Assembly: GCF_007678455.1 (NCBI RefSeq)
Contig: NZ_VEEP01000001.1
Span: forward strand, 248,001 to 312,000
Length of the DNA stretch: 64,000 bases
Origin: Cytobacillus oceanisediminis 2691
GTDB taxonomy: Bacteria > Bacillota > Bacilli > Bacillales > Cytobacillaceae
Direction of reading: 5' to 3'
Numbering within the stretch: position 1 is the first letter of the stretch; each line of letters opens with the position of its first letter. Under the pieces are notes generated by a model that made no database searches, was not told the origin of the DNA, and saw only the letters and a program-made list of their open reading frames with translations. The position numbers and the translations under genes were made by a program. This document shows, piece after piece, positions 10,740 to 36,616 of the stretch.

Positions 10740-11520
10740 GTGTTCTAAGTTCGGACAAAAAGACGAGCCAGAACGCTTAAAATAGCCGAAACAGCCCCAA
10801 GTTCGGACAAAAGAACAAGCCAGGTTGCTTGAAATGTCCGAAGTGGTCCCAAGTTCGGACAAAAGATCAGGCTGGAGTGGCTGAAATGTCCAAAGCAGCC
10901 CTAAGTTCGGACAAAACAACAAGCCTTGGTGCATGAAATGTCCGAAGCAGCCCCAAGTTCGGACAAAACAACAAGCCAGGATGCATGAAATGTCCGAACC
11001 AGTCCCAAATTCGGACAAAACAACAAGCCAGGATGCATGAAATGTCCGAAGTAACCCCAAGTTCGGACAAAACAACAAGCCAGGATTCGTGAAATGTCCG
11101 AAGTAATCCCGTGTTCGGACATAAGACCAGGCTTGAGCACATGAAATGTCCGAAGCAGCCCCAAGTTCGGACAAAACAACAAGCCTGGGTGCATGAAATG
11201 TCCGAAGCAGCTCCAAGTTCGGACAAAACAACAAGCCTTGGTGCATGAAATGTCCTAACCCCAAGTTCGGACAAAAGAACAAGCCAGGATGCATGGAATG
11301 TCCGAAGCAGCCCCAAGTTCGGACAAAACAGCAAGCTTGGGTGCATGAAATGTCCGAAGCTACCCTAAGTTCGGATAAAACAACAAGCCTGGGTGCATGA
11401 AATGTCGGAAGCAGCTCCAAGTTCGGACAAAACAATAAGCCAAGATGCATGAAAAGCCTGAAGCGTTCCCGTGTTCGGACAAAACACTGAGCATGGATGC
11501 TCGTAAGTTCACAAGCAGCC
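10740..11520. repeat. 52-bp tandem repeat array A, 15 units
   Basis: The core TTCGGAC recurs at 10750, 10802, 10854, 10906, 10958, 11010, 11062, 11114, 11166, 11218, 11266, 11318, 11370 (as TTCGGAT), 11422 and 11474. The period is exactly 52 bp except for one 48-bp unit. Each unit reads TTCGGACA, 25 bases, TGTCCGAA, 11 bases, so inverted arms alternate at long and short spacings. The inner 25 bases are also conserved (AACAACAAGCC, then a TGCATGAAA block). Unit-to-unit differences are substitutions. Apparent reverse-strand open frames cross it in all three frames because 52 is not a multiple of three; they are not genes. It starts about 35 bp after the app terminator. Confidence 0.95.
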
Positions 11521-11563
11521 CAGGTACAGACATCATTCTCAATTTTAGCCAGTACAATGAATA

Positions 11564-11592
11564 TTCCGACCGTGCCAACCTGTCTCTATAAT
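11564..11592 (+). promoter_or_regulatory. Possible sigma-A promoter for the small membrane protein
   Basis: A TATAAT at 11587-11592 is preceded at 17 bases by a weak -35, TTCCGA. It lies between the repeat array and the small gene at 11682. The poor -35 makes this tentative. Confidence 0.3.
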
Positions 11593-11681
11593 GAAGGCAG
11601 GTTCAAGTACTTTCTTACCGACTTCCTTCATATGTATATATAAAAATGGACAGGCAGGGGTGAGTAGGTTGCATGATCTGA

Positions 11682-11924
11682 ATGTCAATTGTGAAAAGAG
11701 CCAATTTGATGATTTTTAGGTTGTTTGTTTTGACGATTGGTTTTGGTTTGGCTGTTTCGGGGGGGATCAGCACAATCGCATATTTGAATATGATTACTGC
11801 TGGTCACGGAGTAGATGAATATTTAGCGTTTATATCGCGGAGGGTGGAGTGTTACCTTCTTCCTGCAGGAATTAGCATCATTTGGTTAAGTATATACTGG
11901 CCGCATAATCATGAGGAAAATTGA
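11682..11924 (+). CDS. Small hypothetical membrane protein
   Basis: An 80-residue protein that I cannot assign. Two hydrophobic segments, roughly residues 10-34 and 56-70, are separated by a polar stretch (NMITAGHGVDEYLAFISRRVE), which suggests a hairpin membrane protein. The start is uncertain: ATG 11682 is the first codon after an in-frame stop, with GTG 11691 and ATG 11709 as alternatives, and no ribosome site is ideally spaced. It lies between repeat array A and yjbA, in the same direction as yjbA. The orderly hydrophobic pattern supports it being real. Confidence 0.6.
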   Translation: MSIVKRANLMIFRLFVLTIGFGLAVSGGISTIAYLNMITAGHGVDEYLAFISRRVECYLLPAGISIIWLSIYWPHNHEEN

Positions 11925-12005
11925 TCTTCCTTTTAAGGAATAATTTTACTTAGTGCTGCCCATACTGATGGACAAACAGTTTCTTGAAGTGAGGGGTTAT
12001 AAATC

Positions 12006-12752
12006 ATGTTGTATCTTCATGATGTCTGGGTAAACTGGTTCGAAGGGGAAGAGAACGGCTATAATGTCTGCCACTTTCATGAGTGGCGCAAGGACGATGG
12101 AGTAGAGCTCCTTGACCAGGTGCCGCTGCTGAAAATTGACCATCTGTTATTTAATTACATTGAGAACGATTTATCAGAGTTGCCTCAACAGCTTCTGGAT
12201 GACATTTACCGCAAGGCATACTTGAGGAAGAACCATGAACGTACGCAGCTTGATTATTGTTTCGTTGTTTCTGATGGAACAGGAATTCTTGCTGTGGACA
12301 CCATCGGTTACAATATCCCGATTCGCAAAAGCCGCCTGATTCCGAGACAGGAACAGCTAGTTTATGAAATGATTGAAAATCAGGATACGATTCAGTATGG
12401 GTTCAATGACCAAACTGCTCTGAAGGATTTCCATATCTTATCGCCATCACCAGATTTAATGAGGGGATTGACCCGGAAGGAAAGACAATTGAAGCAGTTG
12501 TTGTTCATGGCGATGGACCAGTTGAACTCTTCAAAAAATGTAGCTGAAGTGCGCTACTGGTTCACTGAATGGAAACCTGAACAATATGAAGTGATTCAAC
12601 AGCTTTCCTTTGAAGATGTTTGGGAAAGACTATATGATGAGACAAAATTCGGCTGGTCAGGAAAGCATGAGAAGTTCTGTGAAAATATCATAAAAGGCCA
12701 GGCATTCTTCGAAAAATTATGGGAGATGGAGCACGGTCCGAAAGTGAATTAG
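12006..12752 (+). CDS. yjbA: UPF0736 family protein YjbA
   Basis: A 248-residue soluble protein of the uncharacterised YjbA family (DUF3603), recognised by its N terminus [20 protein letters not shown] and by its place between the app operon and trpS, as in B. subtilis. It has no signal peptide or membrane helices and is rich in aromatic and acidic residues. GTGAGGGG precedes the ATG. No function is known to me for this family. A terminator follows at 12753 and the neighbouring trpS is convergent. Confidence 0.9.
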
Positions 12753-12780
12753 GAGCTGATGTACTCAGCTCTTTTTGTTT
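12753..12780 (+). terminator. Terminator of yjbA
   Basis: GAGCTGA and TCAGCTC form a seven-base-pair stem with a five-base loop, followed by TTTTTG and further T residues. Confidence 0.85.
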
Positions 12781-12804
12781 TTTACATATAAGACGGTTGA
12801 ATTG

Positions 12805-12834
12805 AAAAGGAGCTGGTAAATGCCAGCTCCTTTT
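12805..12834 (-). terminator. Terminator of trpS
   Basis: AAAAGGAGCTGG pairs with CCAGCTCCTTTT around a six-base loop just past the trpS stop on the minus strand. The arms are symmetrical, so it also backs up the yjbA terminator on the plus strand. Confidence 0.88.
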
Positions 12835-12838
12835 CTGA

Positions 12839-13843
<1,005 letters not shown>

Positions 13844-13883
13844 CTATTATGGTTCTTCTTCCTAAGAACAAAAAGAAGAACGC

Positions 13884-14120
13884 AAAAAAGGACCATTCGT
13901 CCCCTACTTGTAGGGACGAATGGTCCGTGTTGCCACCCTAATTACTCACGAATGAGTCACTCTGCCCATGCTTGTGCTGCATGGCTTCCTTTAACGCAGG
14001 ATTTACGCCTGGATCTACTTACTGCTTAGTTTCGAACCAGAAGCTCGGAAGTCCATTCCAAATGCCAGGCTGTTTGTTTCCACCGACCACAAACTCTCTG
14101 AGAAGCCTTAAACAAATGTA
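13884..14120 (-). promoter_or_regulatory. T-box riboswitch, Trp specifier
   Basis: Reading the minus strand, the leader contains the conserved T-box AGGGTGGCAACACGG (about 13927-13941). It is followed by a terminator hairpin of GGACCATTCGTCCC with its complement and a T-run (13884-13929). Upstream, a Stem I region contains AGAGAG and the specifier context GAA-TGG-ACT, where UGG (complement of 14053-14055) is the Trp codon. Uncharged tRNA-Trp would pair with the specifier and the T-box and favour the antiterminator. The arrangement is the standard Firmicutes trpS leader. Confidence 0.93.
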
Positions 14121-14159
14121 CTATTCTTCTTCATTGCTTTTAAAGATTTATTAAAAATG

Positions 14160-14188
14160 ATTATAATCAAATTTACCATCATAAGCAA
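14160..14188 (-). promoter_or_regulatory. Sigma-A promoter of trpS
   Basis: On the minus strand, TTGCTT and TATAAT are separated by 17 bases. The predicted start near 14153 gives a leader of about 325 nucleotides that holds the whole T-box. Confidence 0.75.
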
Positions 14189-14204
14189 GTGGAACAGGAT
14201 TCTT

Positions 14205-14570
14205 TTACAAATAATAAACGTAAAGGGCTGCCAGCATGAAAGCTAAATCCAGGAGACTAATAATAAGAAGGGGGTTCGCATTGAAGGTGACCAACTCGGA
14301 CAGAGGAGTCATTTCCTCAAACGACTTCTTCTTCTCTCCTTCTTCCTTCTTGGTAAAAACAGTACGGAAAGAATAGGACATTGTGTCAAAGAAACCTGAA
14401 TTGACAGTATAGACAAGTAAGGAGATGAATAATAGTGCACTAGCAATATAAAAAGAAATATTGATATAACTCAGTAAGGTAAAACCTCTACGAACGAGGA
14501 AAGAGAGGAAGAGAACTATCAACTGCGATGAAAAAAAACCGAAAAAAATTTTCCCAACTTTATTGCGCAT
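14205..14570 (-). CDS. DUF3899 family membrane protein
   Basis: A 121-residue protein with three hydrophobic segments (about residues 9-26, 34-58 and 100-120) and a charged cytoplasmic stretch, KKEEGEKKKSFEEM, between the second and third. I recognise the pattern as the DUF3899 family of small Bacillaceae membrane proteins, whose function is unknown. It lies upstream of trpS on the same strand, but trpS has its own promoter and leader. It is divergent from the opp operon, with 273 bp of AT-rich spacer. Confidence 0.75.
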   Translation of the reverse strand: MRNKVGKIFFGFFSSQLIVLFLSFLVRRGFTLLSYINISFYIASALLFISLLVYTVNSGFFDTMSYSFRTVFTKKEEGEKKKSFEEMTPLSELVTFNANPLLIISLLDLAFMLAALYVYYL

Positions 14571-14763
14571 TTTACGGATTCTCCCTTAAATTGCTATTTC
14601 ATTAAAGTAATATTTTAAAAAAACTCTGTAAAAAACTTAAATATTACAATAGGTAACACATTGATTTCATTGAACAAAGGCTTATAAGTCACCATTATAA
14701 CATAAATCAACTAGGAAATTTATTACTATTGTTTCAAAGTTGTAAATTTTTCTCGCAAAAATA

Positions 14764-14792
14764 TTGAACATTTAATTTAATCTATGTATAAT
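14764..14792 (+). promoter_or_regulatory. Sigma-A promoter of the opp operon
   Basis: TTGAAC at 14764-14769 and TATAAT at 14787-14792 are 17 bases apart. This -10 overlaps an in-frame ATG at 14784, which is a further reason to place the oppA start at TTG 14844 instead. Confidence 0.8.
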
Positions 14793-14843
14793 AGGGAATG
14801 TAAAAAGTTTTCAGAAAACAACAAAAAAGAGGGGGCAAAACTT

Positions 14844-16547
14844 TTGAAAAAGTCTAAATTTTCATTGCTATTAGTTTTGACTCTAGTATTCTCTCTATTT
14901 CTGACTGCTTGCAGCAGCGGAGATAAGGATACTGGAAAAGACAAGCCTGCTGATGAAGGCACAAAAGGCGAAGAAACTGCTAACGTACCACAGGAATTAA
15001 GAATGTTGGATTCTTCCGAGATCCCAACTATGGACACTGTCTTAGCTGAAGGTTCTACAAGTTTCACTTACATAAACAACGTAGGTGAAGGTCTTTACCG
15101 CCTTGACCAGGACCACAAGCCGGTTCCTGCACTTGCTGATGGCGAACCAGAAATCAGCGAAGATAAGACTGTTTACACTTTCAAACTTCGCGATTCTAAA
15201 TGGTCTAACGGCGAGCCTGTAACTGCACAAGACTTCGTATTTGCTTGGCAGCGCGCAATCGACCCTGCAACTGCTTCTCCATATGGTCCTTACATGATGG
15301 GCGGCAAAATCAAGGGTGCTGCAGAAATCACTGAAGCTGGAGCAAATAAGAAAGACTACGACCTTAACACTCTTGGTGTAAAGGCAATTGACGAAAAAAC
15401 TTTGGAAGTAACTCTTGAAAAGCCAGTAGTATACTGGGCTGACCTTTTCGCTTTCCCAACATTCTATCCTCAAAACCAGAAGTTTGTTGAAGAGAAAGGC
15501 GAAGCTTTCGCAAGCAATGCTGAAAACTTACTTTACAACGGACCTTTCAAGATGACTAAGTGGGAAGGTACTGACGCCACTGAGTGGGTACTTGAAAAGA
15601 ACGAAGATTACTGGAATGCTAAAGATGTAACTCTTGAGAAAATCACTGTAAACGTAGTAAAAGATTCAAACTCTGCTGTAAACGCATTTGAAGCTGGCGA
15701 AACAGACATGACTGGATTGCTTTCTTCTGATATCGTTCCATCATACGAAGGCGATGAGCGTATGCTTAGCTGGATGGAGCCAACTGTATTCTGGATCAAG
15801 ATGAACCAGAAGAACGAAGCTCTTAAAAACGTAAACATCCGTAAAGCAATCGCAATGGGCTTCAACAAAGAAGACCTTGCTGCAAGCATCCTGAACAATG
15901 GTTCAGTAGCTGCTAACTATTTCGTACCAAAAGATTTCGTAACTCTTGACGGTGAAGATTTCCGTGAAAAGTACGGCGACATTGTTACTTTCAATGCTGA
16001 AGAAGCTAAAAAGGCTTGGGAAACTGGACTTAAGGAACTTGGCGTAGATAAGCTTGAGATTCGCTACCTTGGTGGAGACACTGAAGCAGCTAAGAAGACT
16101 GACGCTTACATCAAGAACCAATTGGAAACTAACCTTCCAGGTTTGACTGTCAAACTTGAAAGTGTTCCTTTCGCAGTACGTCTAGAGCGTGACAACGCTA
16201 TGGATTATGATCTTCAATTCGCAGGATGGGGCCCTGACTACGGTAACGCATTGTCGTTCACTGACCTTTGGATCACTGATGGCGGAAGCAACAGAATGGG
16301 ATACACTAATCCTAAATACGATCAGTTGATCAAGGACGCTCAAGGCAAGCTTGCAACTGATGAAAAAGCACAATGGGAAGCTCAGCAGGAAGCTGAAAAG
16401 ATCATGCTTGGAGAAGATTTTGGTCTAGCGCCGGTTTACCAGCGTGCAGCTAACATCCTATTGAACCCAGGAGTTAAAGGTCTTGCGATCTACAACTATG
16501 GTCCTGACTATAACTTCCAATGGGTTAAGATTACTGAAGCAGAATAA
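14844..16547 (+). CDS. oppA: Oligopeptide-binding lipoprotein OppA
   Basis: Family 5 binding lipoprotein of 567 residues from a TTG start at 14844, with GAGGGGG about eight bases upstream. Signal peptide LKKSKFSLLLVLTLVFSLF runs to lipobox LTAC. The mature part contains DSKWSNGEPVTAQDFVFAWQ and IRKAIAMGFNKEDLA, characteristic of OppA. It binds oligopeptides, including signalling peptides in related bacilli, for OppB-F. A strong palindromic terminator at 16594-16627 between oppA and oppB would leave oppA in excess over the membrane subunits, the usual stoichiometry for binding proteins. Codon use is strongly biased, suggesting high expression. Confidence 0.96.
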   Translation: MKKSKFSLLLVLTLVFSLFLTACSSGDKDTGKDKPADEGTKGEETANVPQELRMLDSSEIPTMDTVLAEGSTSFTYINNVGEGLYRLDQDHKPVPALADGEPEISEDKTVYTFKLRDSKWSNGEPVTAQDFVFAWQRAIDPATASPYGPYMMGGKIKGAAEITEAGANKKDYDLNTLGVKAIDEKTLEVTLEKPVVYWADLFAFPTFYPQNQKFVEEKGEAFASNAENLLYNGPFKMTKWEGTDATEWVLEKNEDYWNAKDVTLEKITVNVVKDSNSAVNAFEAGETDMTGLLSSDIVPSYEGDERMLSWMEPTVFWIKMNQKNEALKNVNIRKAIAMGFNKEDLAASILNNGSVAANYFVPKDFVTLDGEDFREKYGDIVTFNAEEAKKAWETGLKELGVDKLEIRYLGGDTEAAKKTDAYIKNQLETNLPGLTVKLESVPFAVRLERDNAMDYDLQFAGWGPDYGNALSFTDLWITDGGSNRMGYTNPKYDQLIKDAQGKLATDEKAQWEAQQEAEKIMLGEDFGLAPVYQRAANILLNPGVKGLAIYNYGPDYNFQWVKITEAE

Positions 16548-16593
16548 TAACTAAAGCAGTTTCTTATTTCAGAAGGTAATAATTCTGATGATA

Positions 16594-16627
16594 GAAAGAG
16601 AGTATATCTAGATATACTCTCTTTTTC
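16594..16627 (+). terminator. Intra-operon terminator between oppA and oppB
   Basis: AAAGAGAGTATATC pairs with GATATACTCTCTTT with almost no loop, followed by T residues. It sits between the binding-protein gene and the permease genes and probably reduces read-through, so OppA is made in excess. Confidence 0.88.
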
Positions 16628-16685
16628 CCTGTGAGGCATTTGTCGAATAATAGGGAAAATTAAAATAATATAGGAGGTGCACACT

Positions 16686-17615
16686 ATGGGAAAATACCTG
16701 GCTAAAAGGATTCTCTTTATGATTTTGACTCTTTTCATTATTGCGTCCATAACGTTTTTCTTAATGAAAATCATACCTGGTACGCCATTTGCGAGTGCAG
16801 CTAAATTGCCGCCTGCGCAATTGCAAATAATGAAAGCTAAGTATGGATTGGACCAGCCTGTGCCTGTACAATATGCTAAATATATTGGCAACCTGCTGCA
16901 AGGAGATCTGGGTATCTCATTTCAATTTAATAACACACCGGTAACCGACCTGATGATCAAGCGTCTTGGTCCATCTATGCAATTAGGAGCCCAGGCTATG
17001 ATTGTTGGAACCATATTAGGCATCATGCTCGGTATATTTGCCGCTCTTAGACAAAATACATGGGTGGATTATAGTGCAACATTTATTGCAGTTTTGGGTA
17101 AGGCTGTGCCAAACTTTGTTTTTGCTGGTCTTCTTCAATATTTTGTAGCTGTAAAATTAGGCTGGTTCCCAGTGCTATTCTGGAAAGGATTTGAATATAC
17201 AATCCTGCCAACCATTGCATTATCTATTTTCCCAATAGCAATTTCAGCCCGATTCATGAGAACAGAAATGATTGAAGTTTTAGGGTCGGATTACATCCTT
17301 CTAGCTAAAGCAAAAGGTGCAAGTTACTATGAAATCGCAGTAAAACATGCTTTGAGGAATGCACTTATTCCTTTGGTAACTGTACTAGGGCCTTTGGCGA
17401 TCTCTTTGATGACAGGTTCACTAGTAGTAGAAAAGATATTTGCTATTCCTGGATTAGGAGAGCAGTTTGTAAAATCTATTACTGTTAATGATTACCCTGT
17501 TATCATGGGAACAACTATTTTATTTGCTGCTTTATTTGTGTTTATCATCCTTGTAGTGGATATTTTATATGGAATCATTGATCCACGAATCAGACTGTCA
17601 GGAGGTAAAAAGTAA
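16686..17615 (+). CDS. oppB: Oligopeptide ABC transporter permease OppB
   Basis: Permease of 309 residues starting at ATG 16686. AGGAGGTG at 16672-16679 lies six bases upstream, which rules out the in-frame GTG at 16677 inside that site. It opens MGKYLAKRILFMILTLFIIA, has about six membrane helices and the EAA loop with DYILLAKAKGASYYEIAVKH. Its stop overlaps the oppC start by one base (TAATG), and the oppC ribosome site AGGAGG lies within its last codons, indicating coupled translation. Confidence 0.95.
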   Translation: MGKYLAKRILFMILTLFIIASITFFLMKIIPGTPFASAAKLPPAQLQIMKAKYGLDQPVPVQYAKYIGNLLQGDLGISFQFNNTPVTDLMIKRLGPSMQLGAQAMIVGTILGIMLGIFAALRQNTWVDYSATFIAVLGKAVPNFVFAGLLQYFVAVKLGWFPVLFWKGFEYTILPTIALSIFPIAISARFMRTEMIEVLGSDYILLAKAKGASYYEIAVKHALRNALIPLVTVLGPLAISLMTGSLVVEKIFAIPGLGEQFVKSITVNDYPVIMGTTILFAALFVFIILVVDILYGIIDPRIRLSGGKK

Positions 17616-18643: not shown

Positions 18644-18660
18644 AAGGGCAGGTGAATATA

Positions 18661-19695: not shown

Positions 19696-19717
19696 ACTGT
19701 AGGAGGAGGACTGGCTG

Positions 19718-20659: not shown

Positions 20660-20662
20660 TCA

Positions 20663-20696
20663 AAGCGATCTCTTAATTTGAGATCGCCTTTTTTTT
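20663..20696 (+). terminator. Terminator of the opp operon
   Basis: GCGATCTC pairs with GAGATCGC around a seven-base loop, followed by a run of eight T residues at 20689-20696. Confidence 0.93.
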
Positions 20697-23920: not shown

Positions 23921-23927
23921 ATTTATT

Positions 23928-23956
23928 AAGCTCCCAATTTTGGGAGCTTTTTTTGT
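23928..23956 (+). terminator. Terminator of spx
   Basis: AGCTCCCAA pairs with TTGGGAGCT around a three-base loop, followed by TTTTTTTG. Confidence 0.92.
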
Positions 23957-23979: not shown

Positions 23980-24516
23980 TCTTACTTTAGACAGCTTTTC
24001 TTTGTATTCCACTAAAGCTGTCTGAACTCTGGCTTACTTCGGACAGCTTTTCTTGGTTTGCCACGAAAGCTGTCCGAACTTTGGCTTACTTCGGACAGCT
24101 CTTCTTGGATTGCTACTAAAGCTGTCCGAACTTGGACCTACTTCGGACAACTTTTCTTCGTTGTTCACTAAAGCTGTCCGTACTCTGGCTTACTTCGGAC
24201 AGCTTTTCATTGTTTGCCAGTAAAGTTGTCTGAACCGAGACTTACTTGGGACAGCTTTTCTTGGTTTTCCACCAAAGCTGTCCGAACTTGGATTTACTTT
24301 AGACAGCTTTTCTACGATTGCCACTAAAGCTGTCCGAACCTAGGCTTACTTCGGACAGCTTTTCTTCGATTGTCACGAAAGCTGTCGGAACTTGGACTCC
24401 CTTCGGACAGCTTTTTTGGGTTTGCCACGAAAGCCGTCCGAACTCTGGCTCACTTCAGACAGCTTTTCTTGGTTTTCCACCAAAGCTGTCCGAACCCAGG
24501 CTCACTTCAGACAGCA
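23980..24516. repeat. 52-bp tandem repeat array B, 11 units
   Basis: ACAGCTTTT-type cores recur at 23991, 24043, 24095, 24147, 24199, 24251, 24303, 24355, 24407, 24459 and 24511 (the last truncated), an exact 52-bp period. The unit has 13-bp inverted arms, TTCGGACAGCTTT and AAAGCTGTCCGAA, around 15 bases, then 11 bases to the next unit. The outer eight bases of each arm and their spacing (8-25-8-11) match array A, while the rest differs. It starts about 25 bp after the spx terminator. Short open frames here are repeat-derived and not genes. Confidence 0.95.
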
Positions 24517-24602: not shown

Positions 24603-24631
24603 TTGAAATCAAGCCAAGTTTCTGCTAAAAT
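24603..24631 (+). promoter_or_regulatory. Candidate sigma-A promoter for mecA
   Basis: TTGAAA at 24603-24608 and TAAAAT at 24626-24631 are 17 bases apart, with TG one base before the -10 (extended -10). If used, the mecA leader would be about 295 nucleotides. Nothing else recognisable is seen between 24632 and 24934. Confidence 0.6.
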
Positions 24632-25642: not shown

Positions 25643-25644
25643 AA

Positions 25645-27363: not shown

Positions 27364-27394
27364 CAGTCCGTATTTGTTACGGGCTGTTTTTTTT
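27364..27394 (+). terminator. Terminator of cls
   Basis: CAGTCCGTA pairs with TACGGGCTG (one G-T pair) around a five-base loop, followed by eight T residues. Confidence 0.9.
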
Positions 27395-27480
27395 CTGTGA
27401 ACATTTTGTTAATTGTTTCAATTATAAGAGGTGATCACTCCTATACTCCCGAATAGAACTAGGAGAAAGGAGGTTCAATA

Positions 27481-28683: not shown

Positions 28684-28833
28684 CATGAAAAAAGAAATTA
28701 AAGAGTAAAATAAGGAAGTTAACGAAAAACTTTTCATCTCTTTCTTTTTTTTGAAGGAAATAAGAACCGATTATCGAATAATATGATAGTAGAAAAGTTT
28801 TTCGAATTCCGAAATTTTGTTAGGAGGATCCAT

Positions 28834-30651
28834 ATGTCTGATGAAACAGCAGTAAAAAAATTGCCATCAAGAGATGAGGCTGCCACCGAGAATACGTGGA
28901 GACTTGAAGATATTTTCGCGAGTGATGATGCCTGGGAAAAAGAATTCAATGAAGTGAAGAGCTTAGTTCCTTCTGTCCAGGAATATCAGGGAAAACTTGG
29001 GGATAGTGCGGATCAGCTTTACGATGCACTGCAATTGCAGGATAAGCTATTAGAGCGCCTTGGCAGATTATATACATATGCACATATGCGCTATGACCAG
29101 GATACAACAAATTCTTTTTATCAAGGACTGGATGACCGCATCAAGAATCTGTATTCCCAGGCGGGAAGTGCACTGGCTTATATTGTGCCGGAAATCCTGG
29201 CTGTCGACGAAGAAAAGATTAAAGGCTTTTTGCAGGAGAAGAAAGAGCTGAAGCTTTATGAGCATGCTTTGGAGGAAATCAATCTTCAGAGACCGCATGT
29301 CCTTTCAGCCGAAGAGGAAGCGCTGCTTGCACAGGCAGGGGAGGTAATGAGTTCACCGTCAAATACTTTTGGCATGCTGAACAATGCGGATTTGGAATTC
29401 CCTTCGATTAAGGACGAGAACGGTGAAGATGTGGAAATCACCCATGGCCGTTACATCCGTTTCCTTGAAAGTGAAGATCGCAGGGTACGCGAGGATGCCT
29501 TCAAAGCGGTTTACAAAACATATGGCAGCTTCAAAAATACATTTTCAAGCACATTGAGCGGCAATATCAAGAAGGATAACTTCAATGCAAGAATCCGTAA
29601 ATATGATTCTGCGAGGCATGCTGCACTTGCTGCGAATAATATCCCTGAAAGTGTTTATGAAAACCTTGTGAATACAGTGAATGATAACCTGCACCTGCTT
29701 CATAGATACGTAAAGCTTCGAAGGAAGGTACTGGGCCTCGATAAGCTTCATATGTATGACCTTTACACACCATTGGTGAAGAACGTGAAAATGGAAATCC
29801 CATATGGAGAGGCTAAAGATTATGTCCTAAAAGGCCTAGAGCCACTTGGACAGGAATATAATCAGGTCCTTCAGGAGGGTTTTGAAAATCGCTGGGTAGA
29901 TGTGTATGAGAACAAAGGGAAGCGCAGCGGTGCCTATTCTTCGGGTGCATATGGCACAAATCCATACATCCTGATGAACTGGCAGGATAATGTGAATAAT
30001 TTATTTACGCTTGCACATGAGTTCGGACATTCGGTCCACAGCTACTACACTAGGAAAACTCAGCCATATCCATATGGAAACTACTCAATTTTTGTTGCAG
30101 AGGTAGCTTCCACATGCAATGAAGCGCTTTTGAATGACTATATGCTGAAAACGATTGATGATGAGCAGAAGCGCTTGTATTTACTGAATCACTATCTCGA
30201 GGGCTTCAGGGGAACTGTGTTCAGACAGACCATGTTCGCTGAATTTGAACATATGATTCACCAGAAAGCACAGAATAACGAAGCTTTGACAGCTGATTCT
30301 CTCACAAAGGATTATTATGAGCTCAATAAAAAATACTTCGGTGAAGAAGACATCATTATTGATGAGGAAATCGGACTGGAGTGGTCTAGGATTCCGCATT
30401 TCTATTACAATTACTATGTATACCAGTATGCGACAGGCTTCAGTGCAGCGACAGCACTGAGCAAACAGATCCTTGAGGAAGGACAGCCTGCTGTCGAACG
30501 ATATATTGAATTCCTGAAATCAGGAAGCTCTGACTATCCAATCGAAGTCCTGAAAAAGGCAGGAGTGGATATGACAAGCTCGAAGCCAATTGAGGAAGCT
30601 TTGAAGGTATTCGAAGAAAAGCTGAACGAAATGGAAGCATTGCTTTCTTAG
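28834..30651 (+). CDS. pepF: Oligoendopeptidase F
   Basis: Cytoplasmic M3-family zinc metallopeptidase that cleaves short peptides, here 605 residues, the usual length. The start ATG at 28834 follows AGGAGG by about eight bases. The catalytic motif is HEFGH at 395-399 (LAHEFGHSVHSYY), with a downstream Glu helix (AEVASTCNEALL) supplying the third zinc ligand. It follows coiA, as in B. subtilis. Together with the two oligopeptide importers, it would degrade imported peptides. A perfect terminator follows. Confidence 0.96.
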   Translation: MSDETAVKKLPSRDEAATENTWRLEDIFASDDAWEKEFNEVKSLVPSVQEYQGKLGDSADQLYDALQLQDKLLERLGRLYTYAHMRYDQDTTNSFYQGLDDRIKNLYSQAGSALAYIVPEILAVDEEKIKGFLQEKKELKLYEHALEEINLQRPHVLSAEEEALLAQAGEVMSSPSNTFGMLNNADLEFPSIKDENGEDVEITHGRYIRFLESEDRRVREDAFKAVYKTYGSFKNTFSSTLSGNIKKDNFNARIRKYDSARHAALAANNIPESVYENLVNTVNDNLHLLHRYVKLRRKVLGLDKLHMYDLYTPLVKNVKMEIPYGEAKDYVLKGLEPLGQEYNQVLQEGFENRWVDVYENKGKRSGAYSSGAYGTNPYILMNWQDNVNNLFTLAHEFGHSVHSYYTRKTQPYPYGNYSIFVAEVASTCNEALLNDYMLKTIDDEQKRLYLLNHYLEGFRGTVFRQTMFAEFEHMIHQKAQNNEALTADSLTKDYYELNKKYFGEEDIIIDEEIGLEWSRIPHFYYNYYVYQYATGFSAATALSKQILEEGQPAVERYIEFLKSGSSDYPIEVLKKAGVDMTSSKPIEEALKVFEEKLNEMEALLS

Positions 30652-30654
30652 TAC

Positions 30655-30688
30655 AAAAAACCGGCTGCATCATTGCAGCCGGTTTTTT
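30655..30688 (+). terminator. Terminator of pepF, bidirectional
   Basis: AAAAAACCGGCTGCA pairs with TGCAGCCGGTTTTTT around four bases. It also lies directly after the stop of the convergent small gene at 30692 and can terminate it. Confidence 0.95.
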
Positions 30689-30691
30689 CAA

Positions 30692-30865
30692 TTAGAATCC
30701 TTTGAACTTTTTTCGGTTATTTAAATATATCAGTAAAATAAAAAGGGAGAAGAACAGAATGGGGGAGGTCAGGTATAAAGGTAGAAGATGCATCAACCCT
30801 CCGATATGGAGAACAAATGAAAAAAGGATGAATAGTGCTATAAGAAAGAGACCTATTTTGTCCAC
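30692..30865 (-). CDS. Small two-helix membrane protein (yizD position)
   Basis: A 57-residue protein, almost entirely two hydrophobic helices (about residues 4-24 and 28-48) with a basic end, LNNRKKFKGF. GTG at 30865 is preferred because GGAG lies eight bases upstream; an ATG at 30871 is in frame but only two bases from it. It occupies the place of B. subtilis yizD between pepF and roxS, and the size agrees. Sequence identity with YizD cannot be tested here, so no symbol is given. Confidence 0.6.
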   Translation of the reverse strand: MDKIGLFLIALFILFSFVLHIGGLMHLLPLYLTSPILFFSLFILLIYLNNRKKFKGF

Positions 30866-30940
30866 GTACATCACTCCGGATCGCTTTATACATGATATAT
30901 ATGCTTCTGTCCATATATTAATGATTGGTATTTGACAATA

Positions 30941-30958
30941 TTGTGAAATAACACACAA
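30941..30958. promoter_or_regulatory. Probable Rex operator upstream of roxS
   Basis: TTGTGAA-ATAA-CACACAA matches the Rex palindrome TTGTGAA-N4-TTCACAA at 12 of 14 defined positions. Rex is an NADH-sensing repressor. In B. subtilis, roxS is reported to be Rex-controlled. Here the site ends six bases before the proposed -35. Confidence 0.75.
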
Positions 30959-30963
30959 GTGTA

Positions 30964-30993
30964 TTGTTATACTGCTAAAGCCTATGGTATATT
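30964..30993 (+). promoter_or_regulatory. Promoter of roxS
   Basis: TTGTTA at 30964-30969 and TATATT at 30988-30993 are separated by 18 bases, with an extended -10 (TGG before TATATT). Transcription would begin near 30999-31000. Confidence 0.75.
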
Positions 30994-30998
30994 TATGA

Positions 30999-31120
30999 CG
31001 TGAAGTTGATCACAAACAAACATTTACCCCTTTGTTTGACCGTGAAAAATTTCTCCCATCCCCTTTGTTCGTATAAAATAGAAAAAAGGCCTTGCAGTTG
31101 GAGAGCTGCAAGGCCTTTTT
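30999..31120 (+). ncRNA. roxS: Small regulatory RNA RoxS (RsaE family)
   Basis: About 120 nucleotides between the yizD-position gene and spxH, exactly where B. subtilis encodes RoxS. It has the two diagnostic C-rich single-stranded motifs, ACCCCTTTGTTTGA (about 31026-31039) and CCCATCCCCTTTGTT (about 31055-31069). The first lies in a small hairpin of CAAACAAA with TTTGTTTG, and GTGAAAAATTTCTCCCATCC links the two. A long terminator hairpin ends the RNA. RoxS/RsaE pairs its C-rich loops with ribosome-binding sites to down-regulate TCA-cycle and NADH-producing functions. The Rex-like operator and promoter upstream fit that role. Confidence 0.92.
31082..31120 (+). terminator. Terminator of RoxS
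   Basis: AAAAAGGCCTTGCAG pairs with CTGCAAGGCCTTTTT around a seven-base loop. This forms the 3' hairpin of the small RNA and is symmetrical enough to act on both strands. Confidence 0.93.
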
Positions 31121-31261
31121 CTGCATGCAATGATATAAATAGCCAGTTTCACGCTGATTGAAGGCTAAATCCGGCGAGATCCTTTCAATTTCAGTAATGC
31201 GTGAAGTAGTATTGGCGTTTATTATAATGGTGCGACTCCACTTTGATCTGATTTCTGCGCA

Positions 31262-31390
31262 TTTTGAATCAATTTGCCAACATTTTTGATTAATTCAACC
31301 ACTTTTAAGATTATTCGACCACATTTTGAACTAATTCGACCACATTTTAAAATTATTCGACCACATTTTGAATTAATTCGACCACTTCAA
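31262..31390. repeat. 21-bp tandem repeat array D
   Basis: TTCGACCA (first copy TTCAACCA) begins at 31294, 31314, 31335, 31356 and 31377, a period of 20-21 bp, within the unit ATTCGACCACATTTTGAAnTA. A more degenerate copy (CAATTTGCCAACATTTTTGA) precedes them. It lies between RoxS and the spxH stop. It differs from the 52-bp arrays in sequence and period. No open frame of note crosses it. Confidence 0.88.
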
Positions 31391-31448
31391 CAACAATGCC
31401 AAAAAACATGCACCGAACAGCAAAAAAAATGACCGGGCATCTGCACGG

Positions 31449-32330
31449 TCATCCTTCTAGATATCGCCAGAACATCCCGTATTTTGCAGGGATTTGTTCA
31501 ACCATTTGCTTTAACATCAGTTTTTTTAATTCCTTCTCAGCCTGAGGCACTGTGATGTCGTAAACTACAGCCACTTCCTTGGAAGCAACCATTTTGTACT
31601 GCATCAAAAATTGTTCCAGGCTTGGCGGCTGGGCTGCATCTGGTTTTTGCTGTAGCATTTCTTCAAGAATCTGGACGTATACCTCATATGGATAAAGTCC
31701 GGTAATCTTGATGCCTTCTTCTTCGACATTGGCATTGAAAAAGACAAGTGTCGGAATTTCCTGGACGTCCATTTCATTGGTGATTTTCAAATCACACTGG
31801 AACGCCTTTGCAGCTGTTTCTGAATGAATATCTGTCACGAATTCTTCAACGTCCAGCCCCACACTTCTGGCGCAATTTTTTAGCACCTCAAAATTCGAGA
31901 CATTCTGTTTTTCAAGAAACAATACTTCCTGAAGTCTTCGCAGAAAGCGGATGCCTTTCTTTTTTCCCTGAAGTTCTGCCGATTTAATAGCAATCGAAGC
32001 TAAATAAGGAGACGAAACAGGGTTTTCGAACCAAAGCGAGCCGTCACAGGACATACCTGTTCTGCTTGCTGTCTTTTCCCATAGCTCAGCAATCGTTTCG
32101 TAGCGTTTTTTTCTGTTCATGTTCAGGGTGGCAAGACGGCCGCTCAATACATGTTTGATTGAAAAATACTTGCCATATTCGACCTGCAGCTTTTTTATGA
32201 TTGGCTCTAATGCCCAGCATTCAGGACAAAGCGGATCAACGAACATATAAATTTCTATAGGCTTCTTGTCCAAACTCTGGCAGTATTCTGACGGGTCATA
32301 GCTTAAAAGATTTTCGCGGCTGAGTCTCAT
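31449..32330 (-). CDS. spxH: ClpXP adaptor SpxH (YjbH)
   Basis: SpxH (YjbH) is the DsbA-like adaptor that presents Spx to ClpXP for degradation. The 293-residue protein has a thioredoxin-fold start with CXXC at C35-C38 ([13 protein letters not shown]) and an inserted helical domain. A second strand region ([20 protein letters not shown]) is followed by a C-terminal helix-rich tail. Its ATG overlaps the stop of the upstream truncated-hemoglobin gene by four bases (ATGA), so both are translated from one message, as in the B. subtilis yjbIH operon. The target Spx is encoded 8 kb away. Confidence 0.95.
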
Positions 32331-32728
32331 GAGTTCTCACCGGTTTCATCATCTGGTGTATTGATCATATGCTGAGCGGTAAGGTAGAGCCTTGCGTAAA
32401 AATCCTCCCTGACAGAACCATCGAGAACCACTTCATCCATGGCCTCTGCCATGCATGCAAGCCAGGCTTTCGCCCTGACTGGCGTAATTTCGAAAGGCAG
32501 ATGTCTGGCACGAAGCATTGGATGGCCATGTTCGTTGGTATATAAAGGCGGCCCGCCTAAATATTGAGTCAGGAACTGCTTTTGTTTACGGGCAGTTTCT
32601 GTTAAGTCGTCCGGGAATATAGGAGCAAGATCAGGATGCATTCCAACGCGGTGGTAAAAAGCATCGACCAGCCGGTGAAGTGTCCCTTCGCCAATGGCTT
32701 CGAATGGTAAGGTCTTATTCTCAACCAT
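32327..32728 (-). CDS. yjbI: Group II truncated hemoglobin
   Basis: A 133-residue heme protein of the truncated hemoglobin group II (trHbO) family. Distal Tyr B10 is Y25 (DAFYHRV), the proximal His is H76 (RARHLPFEI) and the group II Trp G8 is W89 (AKAWLACM). It can bind oxygen or nitric oxide and is linked to nitrosative or oxidative stress in relatives. AAAGGAG precedes the ATG. It is the first gene of the operon with spxH, coupling a heme/NO protein to Spx control. Confidence 0.95.
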
Positions 32729-32790
32729 ATTGATAACTCCTTTAAAATAGATTTTAGAAATTTCATTCTGCTTTGATAGTTATGCTATTT

Positions 32791-32819
32791 ATTGTAGCAA
32801 TGCTAAATTTATATCTCAA
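32791..32819 (-). promoter_or_regulatory. Sigma-A promoter of yjbI-spxH
   Basis: On the minus strand, TTGAGA and TACAAT are 17 bases apart. The transcription start would be about 55 nucleotides before the yjbI ATG. Confidence 0.65.
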
Positions 32820-32890
32820 ACAAATCGGCTTGTGTTCTGCGAAAACTGTCTTTTGCTTTCATTAATTTCGGCTTGCTTTACTAATTTACA

Positions 32891-32925
32891 CAAAAAAGCC
32901 GCCTGTTACCACTGACAGGCGGGCG
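32891..32925 (-). terminator. Terminator of cwlQ
   Basis: On the minus strand, GCCCGCCTGTCA pairs with TAACAGGCGGC around a short loop and is followed by TTTTTTG. Confidence 0.88.
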
Positions 32926-32948
32926 AAAATAGAGGAATTATTATCCTT

Positions 32949-33593
32949 TTAACTGTAATAAACATCGGTCACTTTCCGTACATAGTTCTGTGTTTCCTTG
33001 AATGGGGGAATCCCGCCGTATTTATCAACATTTCCAGGTCCTGCATTATATGCTGCAAGTGCAAGTTCAATATTATTGTCATATCTATCAAGCATTTGCC
33101 GGAGGTATTTAGCGCCTCCAAGAATATTATCTGCGGGATCAAAGACATTTTTAACTCCGAGGCCCCTTGCTGTTGAAGGCATCAGTTGCATCAATCCGGA
33201 GGCACCGGCATGGCTTACGGCGTTAGGATTGAAATTGGATTCCTTTTGAATGACTGATTTGATCAGCTTGGCTGGTATATTGAACATAGCAGCGGCCTGA
33301 TCGATCATACCATCAAAATCTGTATTATTTTTGGCCGCTACCTTTGTCAGTTGAATGGGAGGGAGCATTTGGGCAATGTTTTGCTTGGATATATCATATG
33401 AGCCCACAGCAGCTTGAGCATTTTCGAACAGCTCTTCCAGCTTTGTTGCCGTGGCGCCAAGGGCATTGCTCTGGTCATTCAAAATGCCGGAAAGCATGTC
33501 CTGAAAAAGGTCGTTTCCCGATTGGCCCGGGGTTCGATTGAAATTTTGAAGCGCCTGCAATTCAAGCATGGCTTTTAACTGATCAACATTCAT
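32949..33593 (-). CDS. cwlQ: Lytic transglycosylase-like cell-wall hydrolase CwlQ (YjbJ)
   Basis: A 214-residue peptidoglycan hydrolase with a C-terminal SLT domain from about residue 95. The catalytic Glu is in [15 protein letters not shown], followed by [15 protein letters not shown] and [17 protein letters not shown], the standard SLT motifs. No N-terminal signal peptide is present, which is also true of B. subtilis CwlQ (YjbJ), so export is by an undefined route. AGGAG precedes the ATG. It is next to yjbK on the minus strand but ends in its own terminator. Confidence 0.92.
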
Positions 33594-33612
33594 AATGATT
33601 CTCCTGCCTGGT

Positions 33613-34200
33613 CTATTCTCTTAAAAGATTATACTTTTTAGCGTAAAAGCGTTTGATCTTATTATCGGTTTGTCGAACAGGTATTTTTAGTTCAGTGAGT
33701 AAATTGGAAAAATTTAGAAATCCTTCCGACTCATCTGTCACTTCATATTCTAGCTCAAAATCCTCTGTATTTAAATAGTAACTATGGTCTAGGACTAGTA
33801 TTCCCTCTTTATACTCAACCTCAGCGCGCACCGTTGTCAGCGACCCGAAGTATTGCAGTTCATTCATATTGGAAATTAAATCGGATACAGCGTCCTTCAC
33901 TTCACCATCAGGCAATTTGCCTGTTTTTAAGGCTTCATTTGCCTGTCCTTCAGTCAGAATCTGATTCGTTTCGAGCAATCCCTGTTTTGCAGGCTGTTTT
34001 AAAGTCAGTTCAAACTCATTGCCTTTTTCCCTGATCCGTAGTGCTGATCCTTTATCCTTCAAGGTAAAAGAAGGTGTATCGAAATAATGATTGATTTGTT
34101 TTTTGAATTGTTCCGGCTCCAGTTTGAAGTAACTTGACAGGTAGTGGAATTCTTTCTCTGTCAGCATGTTCTTGAATTCGATCTCGATATTTTGGCTCAA
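33613..34200 (-). CDS. yjbK: CYTH-domain phosphatase-like protein YjbK
   Basis: A 195-residue CYTH-superfamily protein, a tunnel-fold family acting on triphosphates or polyphosphates. The start is TTG at 34200, with AAAGGA about seven bases upstream; longer in-frame versions lack a ribosome site. The defining ExExK motif is IEIEFK near the N terminus, and the strands [20 protein letters not shown] supply the basic tunnel residues. It lies 19 bp upstream of cwlQ on the minus strand and is divergent from yjbL. The link to relQ and nadK nearby is positional. Confidence 0.88.
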
Positions 34201-34318
34201 GTCCGTCCGTCCTTTCCAATAAGCTGTCCTTATTATCTCGCGAAATCCTGTTTGCTTCAATCTTTAGTAGAAAATGGTTCGATATGATAAAATAAAAAAG
34301 ATTATGGAGGTTGAAAAA

Positions 34319-34699
34319 ATGAGCAAAAAGATTATCGTTACAAATGCAAAAGTAGAAAATGATGAGCTCCTGCTCTTGACAGACAGGGAGACAAAAATAA
34401 CAAGCCTTGCAGCAACTGGGCAAATGCTTGTGGATTCTGATCAATTATCCTTTATTTATATTGTTGATAATGAAGATGGATATCAATATGTCACCATTCC
34501 TGAAGTTGCCTGGAATGCCATACAGCAAGGTCTCCAGGGCGGGCTGGAAGTGTTTCTTGCAAATGCCGGCGGCAAGCTTAAATTGGAAAGCTTCCGTGAT
34601 GAAATGGAATATTTGATTGAAAATATAACAGGGAACAGCAATTATGGAGAGGAAATGGTCACGAAAGTGGAACAGGTTTTTGCCGCACCCTCCGCTTAA
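34319..34699 (+). CDS. yjbL: UPF0738 family protein YjbL
   Basis: A 126-residue soluble protein of the uncharacterised UPF0738 (YjbL) family. The start ATG at 34319 follows GGAGG by about eight bases; an upstream in-frame ATG is inside that site. The sequence opens MSKKIIVTNAKVENDELLLL and has a mixed strand-helix pattern with no membrane segment. It heads a probable operon with relQ and nadK (gaps of 34 and 31 bp). No function is known. Confidence 0.85.
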   Translation: MSKKIIVTNAKVENDELLLLTDRETKITSLAATGQMLVDSDQLSFIYIVDNEDGYQYVTIPEVAWNAIQQGLQGGLEVFLANAGGKLKLESFRDEMEYLIENITGNSNYGEEMVTKVEQVFAAPSA

Positions 34700-34733
34700 G
34701 CTTTCGTGAAAAGAACCGGATGAGGTGACTGAT

Positions 34734-35372
34734 GTGAAACACTGGGATCAATTTTTAGAACCTTATAAACACGCTGTGGAAGAATTGAAGGTAAAGCTTA
34801 AAGGAATCAGGAGCCAATATGAGCTTCATTCCGACCATTCCCCGATTGAATTTGTCACGGGAAGGGTAAAGCCAATTGCAAGCATACTGGACAAAGCCCA
34901 TCAAAAAGGGATTTCACTGGATAAACTCGATTCCGAAATGCAGGATATCGCAGGCTTGAGAATCATGTGCCAGTTCGTGGATGACATCAAGACAGTCGTT
35001 GAACTGTTAAGGTGCCGGAATGATTTTGAAATTATCGAGGAAAGGGATTATATCTCGCATAAAAAAGCAAGCGGTTACCGCTCTTACCATGTGGTCATCC
35101 GTTATCCCGTCCAGACGATCAGGGGAGAAAGAAAGATTCTTGCTGAAATCCAAATCAGGACGCTGGCAATGAATTTCTGGGCAACGGTGGAGCATTCATT
35201 GAACTATAAGTACAAGGGGCTTTTCCCTGAAGATATTAAAATCAGGCTGAAGCGGGCTGCAGAGGCTGCGTTCCGCTTGGATGAAGAGATGTCGACAATC
35301 AGGGGAGAAATCCAGGATGCACAGGCATTTTTTACACGGAAAAAAGAAATGCAGCAGGATGGGAAGAAATAG
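34734..35372 (+). CDS. relQ: Small alarmone synthetase RelQ (YjbM/SasB)
   Basis: Small (p)ppGpp synthetase of 212 residues, matching B. subtilis YjbM (211). It transfers pyrophosphate from ATP to GDP or GTP and contains only the synthetase domain. Key segments are VTGRVKPIASILDKA, the MQDIAGLRIMCQFVDDI core with the RelA_SpoT Asp, SGYRSYHVVI and EIQIRTLAMNFWATVEHSLNYKY. GTG 34734 is chosen because GAGGTG is six bases upstream; GTG 34725 is the alternative. It is followed at 31 bp by nadK, as in B. subtilis. Confidence 0.95.
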   Translation: MKHWDQFLEPYKHAVEELKVKLKGIRSQYELHSDHSPIEFVTGRVKPIASILDKAHQKGISLDKLDSEMQDIAGLRIMCQFVDDIKTVVELLRCRNDFEIIEERDYISHKKASGYRSYHVVIRYPVQTIRGERKILAEIQIRTLAMNFWATVEHSLNYKYKGLFPEDIKIRLKRAAEAAFRLDEEMSTIRGEIQDAQAFFTRKKEMQQDGKK

Positions 35373-35403
35373 TATAAATCCGATATGCAGGGGTGTTTGA
35401 TAC

Positions 35404-36204
35404 ATGAAATTCGCGATTACTTCAAAGGGAGACTCCCGGTCTAATACATTGATGCATAAAATGAGGACGTATCTTTTGGACTTTGATCTAGAATATGATG
35501 AAGACCAGCCGGACATCTGTATCTCTGTCGGAGGGGATGGCACGCTTTTGTATGCTTTCCATCGTTACAGCAGCAGGCTGGATAAAACAGCATTCATTGG
35601 AGTACATACAGGACACCTAGGCTTTTATGCAGACTGGGTTCCTGAAGAAATCGAAAAACTTGTCATTGCCGTGGCAAAAACACCGTACCAGGTGATTGAA
35701 TATCCGCTGCTTGAAGTCATTATCAGGTACCAGCACGGCGGCAGGGAAACCAGGTATCTTGCCCTGAATGAATCCACCGTAAAATCAGTTGAAGGTACAC
35801 TGGTCATGGATGTTGAAATCAGGGGCCAGCATTTTGAACGTTTCCGCGGAGATGGTTTATGCGTATCCACGCCATCCGGAAGCACAGCTTATAACAAAGC
35901 ACTGGGCGGGGCAATCCTTCATCCATCCCTGAGAGCGATCCAGGTAGCAGAAATGGCATCCATCAATAACCGGGTGTTCAGGACAGTGGGATCCCCGCTG
36001 ATCCTGCCTGACCACCATACTTGTACTTTGAAACCTGTCAACAGGCCTGATTTCCAGGTGACAGTGGACCATTTGACCTTATTGCATAAAGATGTGAAAT
36101 CGATCCAATTCCGGGTTGCGGATGAAAAAATCCGTTTCGCGCGATTCCGTCCCTTCCCATTCTGGAAAAGGGTGCATGATTCCTTTATCTCTGATAGTGA
36201 TTAA
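35404..36204 (+). CDS. nadK: NAD kinase
   Basis: ATP-dependent NAD kinase that makes NADP, 266 residues. The GGDGT phosphate-binding motif is at 43-47 ([16 protein letters not shown]). The NAD-binding segment [21 protein letters not shown] and the NE of LALNESTVK are conserved. It corresponds to B. subtilis NadF (YjbN). CAGGGGTG precedes the ATG. It is the last gene before repeat array C; only a weak hairpin (TTTCGG with CCGAAA, 36211-36226) lies between. Confidence 0.96.
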
Positions 36205-36239
36205 GGGTGATTTCGGCTTCCCGAAAAGGAAGAGCCTTT

Positions 36240-36616
36240 TAATGGGGCACTTCAACGATCATGGAAGTCCAAAATATCTAGGAAACCGGCTTTAATGGAC
36301 ATTTCAGAGCACGTGAAAGTCCAAAATGTCTAAGAAACTGGTTTTAATGGACATTTCCATGCACGTGGAAGTCCAAAATGTCTAAGAAACCAGCTTTAAT
36401 GGACATTTCAATGTCTGTATAAGTCCAAAATGTCTAAGAAACTGGTTTTAATGGACATTTCCATGCACGTGGAAGTCCAAAATGTCTAAGAAACCGGCTT
36501 TTATGGACATTTCAGAGCACGTGGAAGTCCAAAATGTCTAAGAAACTGGTTTTAATGGACATTTCAATGCATATGGAAGTCCCAAATGTCTAAGAAACCG
36601 AATTAATGGACAATGG
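36240..36616. repeat. 52-bp tandem repeat array C, about eight units
   Basis: GGACATTT recurs at 36297, 36349, 36401, 36453, 36505 and 36557, exactly 52 bp apart. There is a degenerate first unit at 36245 (GGGCACTT) and a broken last one near 36608. Each unit reads GGACA, 25 bases, TGTCT, 17 bases. Inner sequence such as GCACGTGGAAGTCCAAAA is shared by the units but unlike arrays A and B. The array fills the space between nadK and the pseudouridine synthase, and its last unit runs into the leader of the latter. Confidence 0.95.

Follow-up and report, generated by a model that had tools for sequence, protein, structure and literature searches.

The 52-bp tandem arrays of Cytobacillus oceanisediminis 2691 have a constant half-site geometry, are mostly oriented by replication, and are a candidate protein-binding scaffold

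Tandem repeats of 52 nucleotides (nt) are reportedly the subject of an article by Subirana and Messeguer in J Bacteriol in 2020. In Bacillus and other Firmicutes, the same authors described 52-nt tandem repeats of constant size and variable sequence, to which no function was assigned (PMC8161180). A nucleoid protein or small RNAs were suggested for this class, and short shared signals and their reverse were noted within it (PMC8161180). B. subtilis has no repeats of 51-53 nt (PMC8161180, Table 4). Reads from the B. coagulans repeats are reported in the part of a companion paper considered here (PMC8625621). Herein, three tandem arrays, named A, B, and C, were analyzed in a window of 64,000 nt from the genome of Cytobacillus oceanisediminis 2691 (contig NZ_VEEP01000001.1, positions 248,001 to 312,000, forward strand). 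These arrays are members of the published 52-nt satellite class. An earlier note on this window, made from the sequence alone, knew of no described system with this geometry; the class was already in print (PMC8161180), though without the arm geometry or the replication polarity presented below. No report on 52-bp palindromic intergenic repeats, or on leading-strand orientation of such repeats, was found in literature searches.

The positions and copy numbers of the three arrays, as determined by Tandem Repeats Finder (TRF), are shown in Table 1. The 52-bp period and the fixed 30-bp offset between arms, both claimed in the earlier note, were borne out by TRF and by the arm positions. When RGACA and TGTCY were taken as arms, the offset from RGACA to the next TGTCY was 30 in 11 of 12 cases in array A, 8 of 10 in array B, and 5 of 6 in array C (counting each RGACA with a following TGTCY). 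The return offset from TGTCY to RGACA was 22 in 9 of 11, 8 of 8, and 5 of 7 cases, respectively. The cases with other offsets are mutated arms, stray matches, and a single 48-bp unit among the 52-bp units of array A, whose degenerate end units extend to about 11530. A three-arm pattern was found 22 times in the window and not once in any of 20 controls in which the bases were shuffled inside blocks of 200 bp. The arms are TTCGGACA / TGTCCGAA in array A, ACTTCGGACAGCTTT / AAAGCTGTCCGAA in array B, and AAATGTCYAAGAA / TTAATRGACATTT in array C, and the purine fractions on the plus strand are 0.60, 0.40, and 0.56. The three arrays had been described as unrelated-looking, which does not apply to the arms of A and B, both being TTCGGACA / TGTCCGAA. 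All arms had also been placed on one face of the helix. A length of 52 bp makes exactly five turns only at 10.4 bp per turn, and the shared face is approximate only, with 22 and 30 bp corresponding to about 2.1 and 2.9 turns.

The same geometry recurs throughout the host genome. The two-unit pattern GGACA-N25-TGTCY-N17-GGACA-N25-TGTCY, with up to 3 mismatches, was found 436 times forward and 410 times reverse, and the backwards-read control gave 2 and 2 matches. A host sample of 1.58 Mb, about one third of the genome, was surveyed for tandem arrays de novo, with no motif used. A period of 51-53 bp was found in 47 of the 97 arrays (exactly 52 bp in 42). The second-largest size class, of 20-21 bp, had 18 arrays (13 repeating every 21 bp and 5 every 20 bp). 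The spacing of arms elsewhere in the genome, raised as a check in the earlier note, was not random. In the 1.58 Mb, TGTCC-N-GGACA was counted 87 times at N=17 and 73 times at N=69, which is one period on, with a median of 1 over spacings 0-80; GGACA-N-TGTCC peaked at N=25 (96) and N=77 (77). By eye, the array consensuses of the host include several unlike arm families, namely TTCGGACA, TTGACAG, ATGACGGACA, ATGTGCCC, ATTGGTGAC, CATAAGGG, and TTAGACATTT, and some arrays have non-TGTC cores (GTCACCAAT, ATGTGCCC, CATAAGGG). The arrays occupy gaps between called open reading frames (ORFs), with few ORFs overlapping an array edge and then by at most 39 bp; the gene set consisted of the longest ORFs of at least 70 aa, and ORFs lying at least 30% inside arrays were omitted by construction.

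The geometry is also found across the family; a scan of related Bacillaceae genomes had been proposed in the earlier note. A four-arm pattern with up to 2 mismatches was present in 153 of 193 family genomes, in 118 of the 156 good ones, and in 19 of 25 genera, with 0-3 matches per strand in the controls. An exact scan of species genomes gave at least 114 stretches, and among the 80 matches listed are arrays of Mesobacillus, Neobacillus, Cytobacillus, Robertmurraya, Evansella, Texcoconibacillus, Ureibacillus, Heyndrickxia coagulans, Caldibacillus, and Trichococcus.

Each 52-bp unit is composed, in order, of a half-site, a 7-bp spacer, an inverted half-site, and a linker of about 15 bp, with variable spacer and linker. 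The half-sites are about 10-15 bp long and usually have a TGTC core, and their centers lie 22 bp apart over the spacer and 30 bp apart over the linker. This anatomy is new for the 52-nt class. Conservation within arrays was measured in 29 TGTC-type host arrays, with the units located by the TGTC/GACA letters; two of the 29 (C11 54364 and 89366) are out of register. Two blocks of about 13 bp centered on the arms had values of 0.86-0.98, and the spacer and linker had values of 0.74-0.83. In the 1.58 Mb, 102 occurrences of the dyad TGTC-N19-GACA with at least four of five inner pairs lie in or near arrays, and one lies outside them.

When single array consensuses were scored loosely for palindromes, the signal was weak (p<0.05 in 19 of 47), and register-based tests were used instead. 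A set of 100 arrays of many species gave 71 distinct inner-arm combinations, in which the five inner arm pairs were Watson-Crick in 0.75 of 355 cells, versus at most 0.34 when the partner was slid by 1-4 bases. Among 70 distinct 27-mers, four of the five inner positions had all four pair types and the fifth had three, and the spacer showed no symmetry above that of shuffles. The outer TGTCC/GGACA was imposed by the search pattern in both sets. The inner five base pairs vary between arrays yet stay symmetric, and G.T pairs are not in excess. Action of the arrays as RNA or as a single-strand hairpin would predict more G.T than A.C on the strand that acts. The counts of G.T versus A.C were 166 versus 170 in host array stems selected to have 7 or more of 10 pairs, 10 versus 12 between arrays of many species, and 15 versus 13 with orientation by the purine strand. 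This symmetry is of the type of double-stranded DNA (dsDNA).

The half-sites were compared between species at the site 3' of nadK, where array C is located. A 52-bp array was present in 15 of the 20 genus loci compared; no nadK orthologue was obtained for one further genus member (G084). The footprint set comprised 12 genomes from 11 species (G000 and G075 are the same species), all with the arm type of array C. The other 8 of the 20 loci were excluded, two having another arm type inside the array and the remainder having too few in-register units or no array. Between the array consensuses of the 12 genomes, pairwise identity was 0.93 in both 10-bp arms and 0.79-0.85 in the outer flanks, and it fell to 0.48 for the spacer and 0.36-0.38 for the linker. 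All 12 genomes keep the arms AAATGTCYAAGAA and TTAATRGACATTT at this site, together with an invariant A-facing-A mispair within the dyad. The half-sites are constrained at one orthologous site while the spacer and linker turn over. Between two assemblies of the host species, array C differs in length by 104 bp, which is two whole units.

The orientation of the arrays was analyzed relative to replication. The leading strand was assigned in the host from GC skew and gene strand, and in public records from local GC skew over at most 8 kb per locus. The purine fraction of the leading strand was 0.584 in the arrays versus 0.512 in 2,407 control intergenic 52-mers. The leading strand was the purine-rich one in 42 of the 47 host arrays, versus 51% of the controls (p = 3.5e-8); a test by replichore had been suggested in the earlier note. 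By neighboring genes, in flank classes that are approximate, the agreement was 22 of 26 where the neighbors run with replication, 16 of 17 between convergent or divergent genes, and 4 of 4 where both neighbors run against replication. The earlier note had also placed each array after the end of a gene and before a co-directional gene, which fails as a rule: 11 of the 47 arrays are flanked by convergent genes and 6 by divergent ones. Four other genomes (three from other genera and one genus member) were examined over stretches of 200 kb, where 9 of 11 arrays agreed, with 4 of 4 in the class against replication. In 114 public records, which were selected by the pattern, 84 of 102 arrays agreed with GC skew after 14 of 116 were dropped for low skew; both-against loci agreed in 7 of 9 cases and convergent or divergent loci in 26 of 33. 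When orientation was read by eye from the motif, GACAGGTT versus GACAGCTT ends were 10 versus 2, the remaining arrays being uninformative. The arrays are mostly oriented by replication, regardless of the direction of transcription, and this polarity is new for the 52-nt class.

We consider it somewhat probable that these satellites act as a helically phased dsDNA scaffold for protein binding that is linked to replication or segregation. A candidate dimeric, sequence-specific DNA-binding protein would occupy the two inverted half-sites of each 52-bp unit, 22 bp apart over the 7-bp spacer and 30 bp apart over the linker, and would do so side by side along the array. The arrays would lengthen and shorten by whole units. 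Judged from the sequence, binding of a protein, and of a dimer, is most likely. A role in chromosome organization, replication, or segregation is likewise most likely, rather than regulation of the gene that follows, because the direction of the arrays matches the fork and not transcription. One suggestion of the earlier note, a phased scaffold for protein binding in which the spacing is conserved and the inner sequence is free, is the best fit to the data: between species, the half-sites are kept, unlike the spacer and linker, and the geometry is genome-wide and family-wide. An enigma described by constant size, free sequence, and no function would be turned into rules that define a DNA bait and the changes to test. 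If the protein were found, it would reveal a chromosome-organizing or recombination system widespread in Bacillota; with no such arrays in B. subtilis, it would have gone unnoticed there.

Several observations weigh against a binding scaffold. The arrays are patchy in presence, and their role cannot therefore be essential. The four-arm motif is lacking in 40 of the 193 family genomes; G080, of genus g1, is one of them. At spx, the gene preceding array B, 16 of 19 loci have no array, and an array was found only in the host species (two assemblies) and in G081; one of the 19 loci (L108) ends soon after the gene. In most of the array-free spx loci, the spx terminator and a promoter-like site are close together. 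Within one genome, the half-sites vary from array to array, a variation that a single protein would not require. Five of the 47 host arrays, array B included, break the leading-strand rule. Intergenic arrays of 19-22 and 38-43 bp also have a purine lean to the leading strand, though a weaker one (15 of 19), and part of the polarity may be mutational because other repeat sizes show it too. One-sided changes in the 29-array set comprise 73 G.T versus 50 A.C, which leans to a hairpin. The search for a co-occurring gene, another proposal of the earlier note, gave no candidate for the binding protein: in the genome surveys of Y1 transposases, resolvases, and RTP, none tracks the arrays.

The main rival to the scaffold is that the arrays are neutral or selfish satellites, which we hold to be rather unlikely. 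Slippage and unequal exchange would amplify a seed, quasi-palindrome template switching would keep the arms symmetric, concerted evolution would freeze the period, and strand-biased replication errors would give the polarity. The whole-unit length change of array C, the patchy presence among family genomes and spx loci, and a polarity that follows replication and is weaker in other tandem repeats are all consistent with this explanation, and arm symmetry without a G.T bias is expected from correction at the DNA level. Spread from a common ancestor, also offered in the earlier note, may account for the geometry; it gives no reason for the arms alone being conserved between species. The nadK site speaks against neutral satellites: the half-sites are kept in 12 genomes, unlike the spacer and linker, and the A.A mispair has persisted there instead of being corrected. 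Control intergenic DNA does not have a comparable purine bias, and solitary or differently spaced copies of the dyad are almost absent.

The arrays could also be tandem crossover sites of a resident site-specific recombinase, which we regard as improbable. The dyad of 10+7+10 bp, with inverted arms of 10-15 bp, would be the site, and recombination in the spacer would add, remove, or exchange arrays. Mosaic arrays point in this direction. The nadK array of G089 contains an array with a different arm type, of 12.4 copies by TRF. The two joints between them are hybrid dyads of 26 and 28 bp, in which the old left arm meets the new right arm and then the new left arm meets the old right arm, and in both the break lies in the spacer at AACC. 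The same right joint is present in G072. In L239 (Bacillus marasmi), three arm types stand in a row; an exact 27-bp hybrid links TGAACTCATG to CATACGGACA at one border, and a degenerate hybrid is found at the other. One hybrid dyad is present in G162. The joint table was limited to arrays (15 of 184 regions are listed), as an unrestricted scan for arm types gave mostly chance pairs. Classed by eye, five of the eight joints fall in the spacer, which is suggestive of crossover at the dyad center. The other three arm-type changes fall in the linker (L304, L293, and one side of G162), which disagrees with such a crossover. No enzyme was found to co-occur with the arrays: resolvases of PF00239, including YneB-like recombinases, are present in all 62 genomes chosen from both the array-bearing and the array-free group and do not separate them, tyrosine recombinases not having been searched. 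If the recombinase existed, arrays of different arm type would join or invade in register, and unit number would change by recombination in the spacer. A uniform orientation on each chromosome arm would keep recombination between arms harmless, and Bacillota would have a replication-aligned, genome-wide recombination landscape.

Slightly less probable still is a function as structured RNA after transcription of the arrays, in the form of hairpin arrays, sponges, or small RNAs, as has been proposed in print for this class. A stem of 10 bp closed by a loop of 7 nt can be formed by the 27-nt dyad, RNA sequencing reads were obtained from such repeats in B. coagulans (PMC8161180; PMC8625621, in the part considered), and the 73 versus 50 one-sided changes agree with a hairpin. 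However, neither of the other two counts nor the count on the purine strand (15 versus 13) has an excess of G.T. Within single units of the 29-array set, 250 changes are one-sided, 13 are compensatory, and 14 are double non-compensatory. The invariant A.A mispair in 12 of 12 genomes and an array orientation independent of transcription also argue against RNA, as does the position of array B after the spx terminator and before a promoter-like TTGAAA-N17-TAAAAT. No match to Rfam was found at gathering thresholds within the arrays of the window. The covariation between arrays is also expected from DNA dyads.

The least probable explanation is that the arrays are REP-like (repetitive extragenic palindromic) elements moved by RAYT, a Y1 transposase: the repeats are palindromic and intergenic and the host has one Y1 transposase match, but no tandem array is present in the 3.3-kb locus around that gene, and array-rich genomes without any Y1 match (single-contig G089 with 400 forward matches and G035 with 73, and also G085 with 387 and G061 with 173) argue against RAYT/REP as a present requirement, although past mobilization may have occurred. 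Y1 transposases, with the RAYT family and IS200-like members pooled, are present in 165 of the 193 family genomes. A fork trap by RTP was rejected as well, with 0 of 13 genomes above the cut-off (4 of 13 had weak matches below it) against B. subtilis among 14 controls.

Table 1 Positions of the three arrays and of the neighboring transcription signals in the window. The strand given for an array is its purine-rich strand.
Feature	Position	Strand	Description
Terminator-like hairpin	10676..10710	+	Intrinsic-terminator-like hairpin and T run between the oligopeptide permease gene and array A; by eye and script
Array A	10747..11486	+	14.3 copies of 52 bp; TRF
spx terminator	23927..23954	+	Intrinsic terminator upstream of array B; by eye and script
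Array B	23981..24515	-	10.3 copies of 52 bp; TRF
Promoter-like site	24603..24631	+	TTGAAA-N17-TAAAAT between array B and mecA; by eye
Terminator-like hairpin	36215..36240	+	Imperfect hairpin between nadK and array C; by eye, not detected by script
Array C	36262..36612	+	6.8 copies of 52 bp; TRF

Array A is preceded by a gene of an oligopeptide permease (best family Opp4C), array B by spx, and array C by nadK. The gene following array B is mecA, the gene following array C encodes an RluA-family pseudouridine synthase, and the family search gave no match for the ORF following array A. Enrichment at gene ends had been proposed as a check; terminators beside arrays are not clearly enriched, with 26 of 52 array-facing gene ends versus 300 of 656 controls. 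Elsewhere in the window, Rfam matches are a T-box leader at 13909-14143 (-), an RsaE/RoxS small RNA at 31000-31120 (+), a tRNA, and a Bacillaceae-1 RNA at 1727-1790 (-). The last is overlapped by a 178-bp repeat of 2.2 copies at 1503-1902, and a 122-bp repeat on the same contig, at 564427-564665, looks related to it. A 21-bp tandem array of the ATTCGACCA type lies at 31260-31385 of the window; 21-bp arrays are the second published satellite size class.

Some further features of the arrays were observed in the host and in other records. The mean density in the 1.58 Mb is one 52-bp array per about 34 kb, and two long stretches are array-free, contig C111 at 521.7-707.5 kb and contig C444 at 55.3-280 kb (the end of the part examined), both mostly leading-strand coded. 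At 10752-10830 of L028 (contig C111, 210752-210830), a 52-bp array adjoins a terminator-like hairpin of the same stem, GTCCGATAG...CTATCGGAC, whose Ts lie on the same strand as the facing gene. It looks as though a unit of the array had served as a terminator or the reverse. At 6580-7048 of L304, the arm type shifts from TGTCCTTCAT to TGTCCAATAG and the linkers on either side stay alike, as if the dyad were a cassette replaceable independently of the linker. L200, titled Chryseobacterium sp. ISL-80 (with L245), is about 92% identical to the host contig over up to 3.6 kb, and because of this identity the Chryseobacterium label is probably wrong. Records of Sedimentibacter sp. SX930 carry arrays that look closely similar to those of Trichococcus; the records concerned in these two cases are L200/L245, L229, L234, and L278.

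The arrays were compared with known systems of DNA sites. The CIRCE operator of HrcA (controlling inverted repeat of chaperone expression) is a 27-bp inverted repeat with a middle spacer, and it is a solitary, conserved operator. The array dyads differ in occurring almost only in tandem (102 inside and 1 outside, as counted above) and in having array-specific inner halves. Core sites of tyrosine recombinases and the Tn3-type res half-sites TGTCYGATAA have inverted arms with a short spacer. The arrays share with them the inverted arms around a 7-bp spacer, the TGTCCGATAA arms of some arrays, and the hybrid dyads at joints. Unlike recombinase sites, array sites number hundreds per genome, some joints lie outside the spacer, and the resolvase survey found no enzyme that tracks them. 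The Ter sites of B. subtilis, bound by RTP, are dimer-binding DNA sites with a polarity relative to the fork. The arrays differ from these in the RTP result given above and in being found on contigs of both replication directions.

REP sequences and bacterial interspersed mosaic elements (BIME) with RAYT are, in the part of the source considered, intergenic palindromic repeats often in inverted pairs (PMC3733652), and the arrays resemble them in this respect. The differences are a strict 52-bp tandem order, no requirement for RAYT, and ends of TGTC/GACA with no GTAG or CGTC tag in the TGTC-type host arrays; C11 54364 and 89366 were left out of this conserved-end analysis. The closest system is the published 52-nt satellite class, with which the arrays share the period of 52 (51-53) nt, the many sequence families per genome, the non-coding, intergenic location, and the signals and their reverse within the repeat. 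The main text of PMC8161180 does not contain the geometry of the half-sites, their footprint across species, the replication polarity, or the absence of an RNA signature, all of which are added here.

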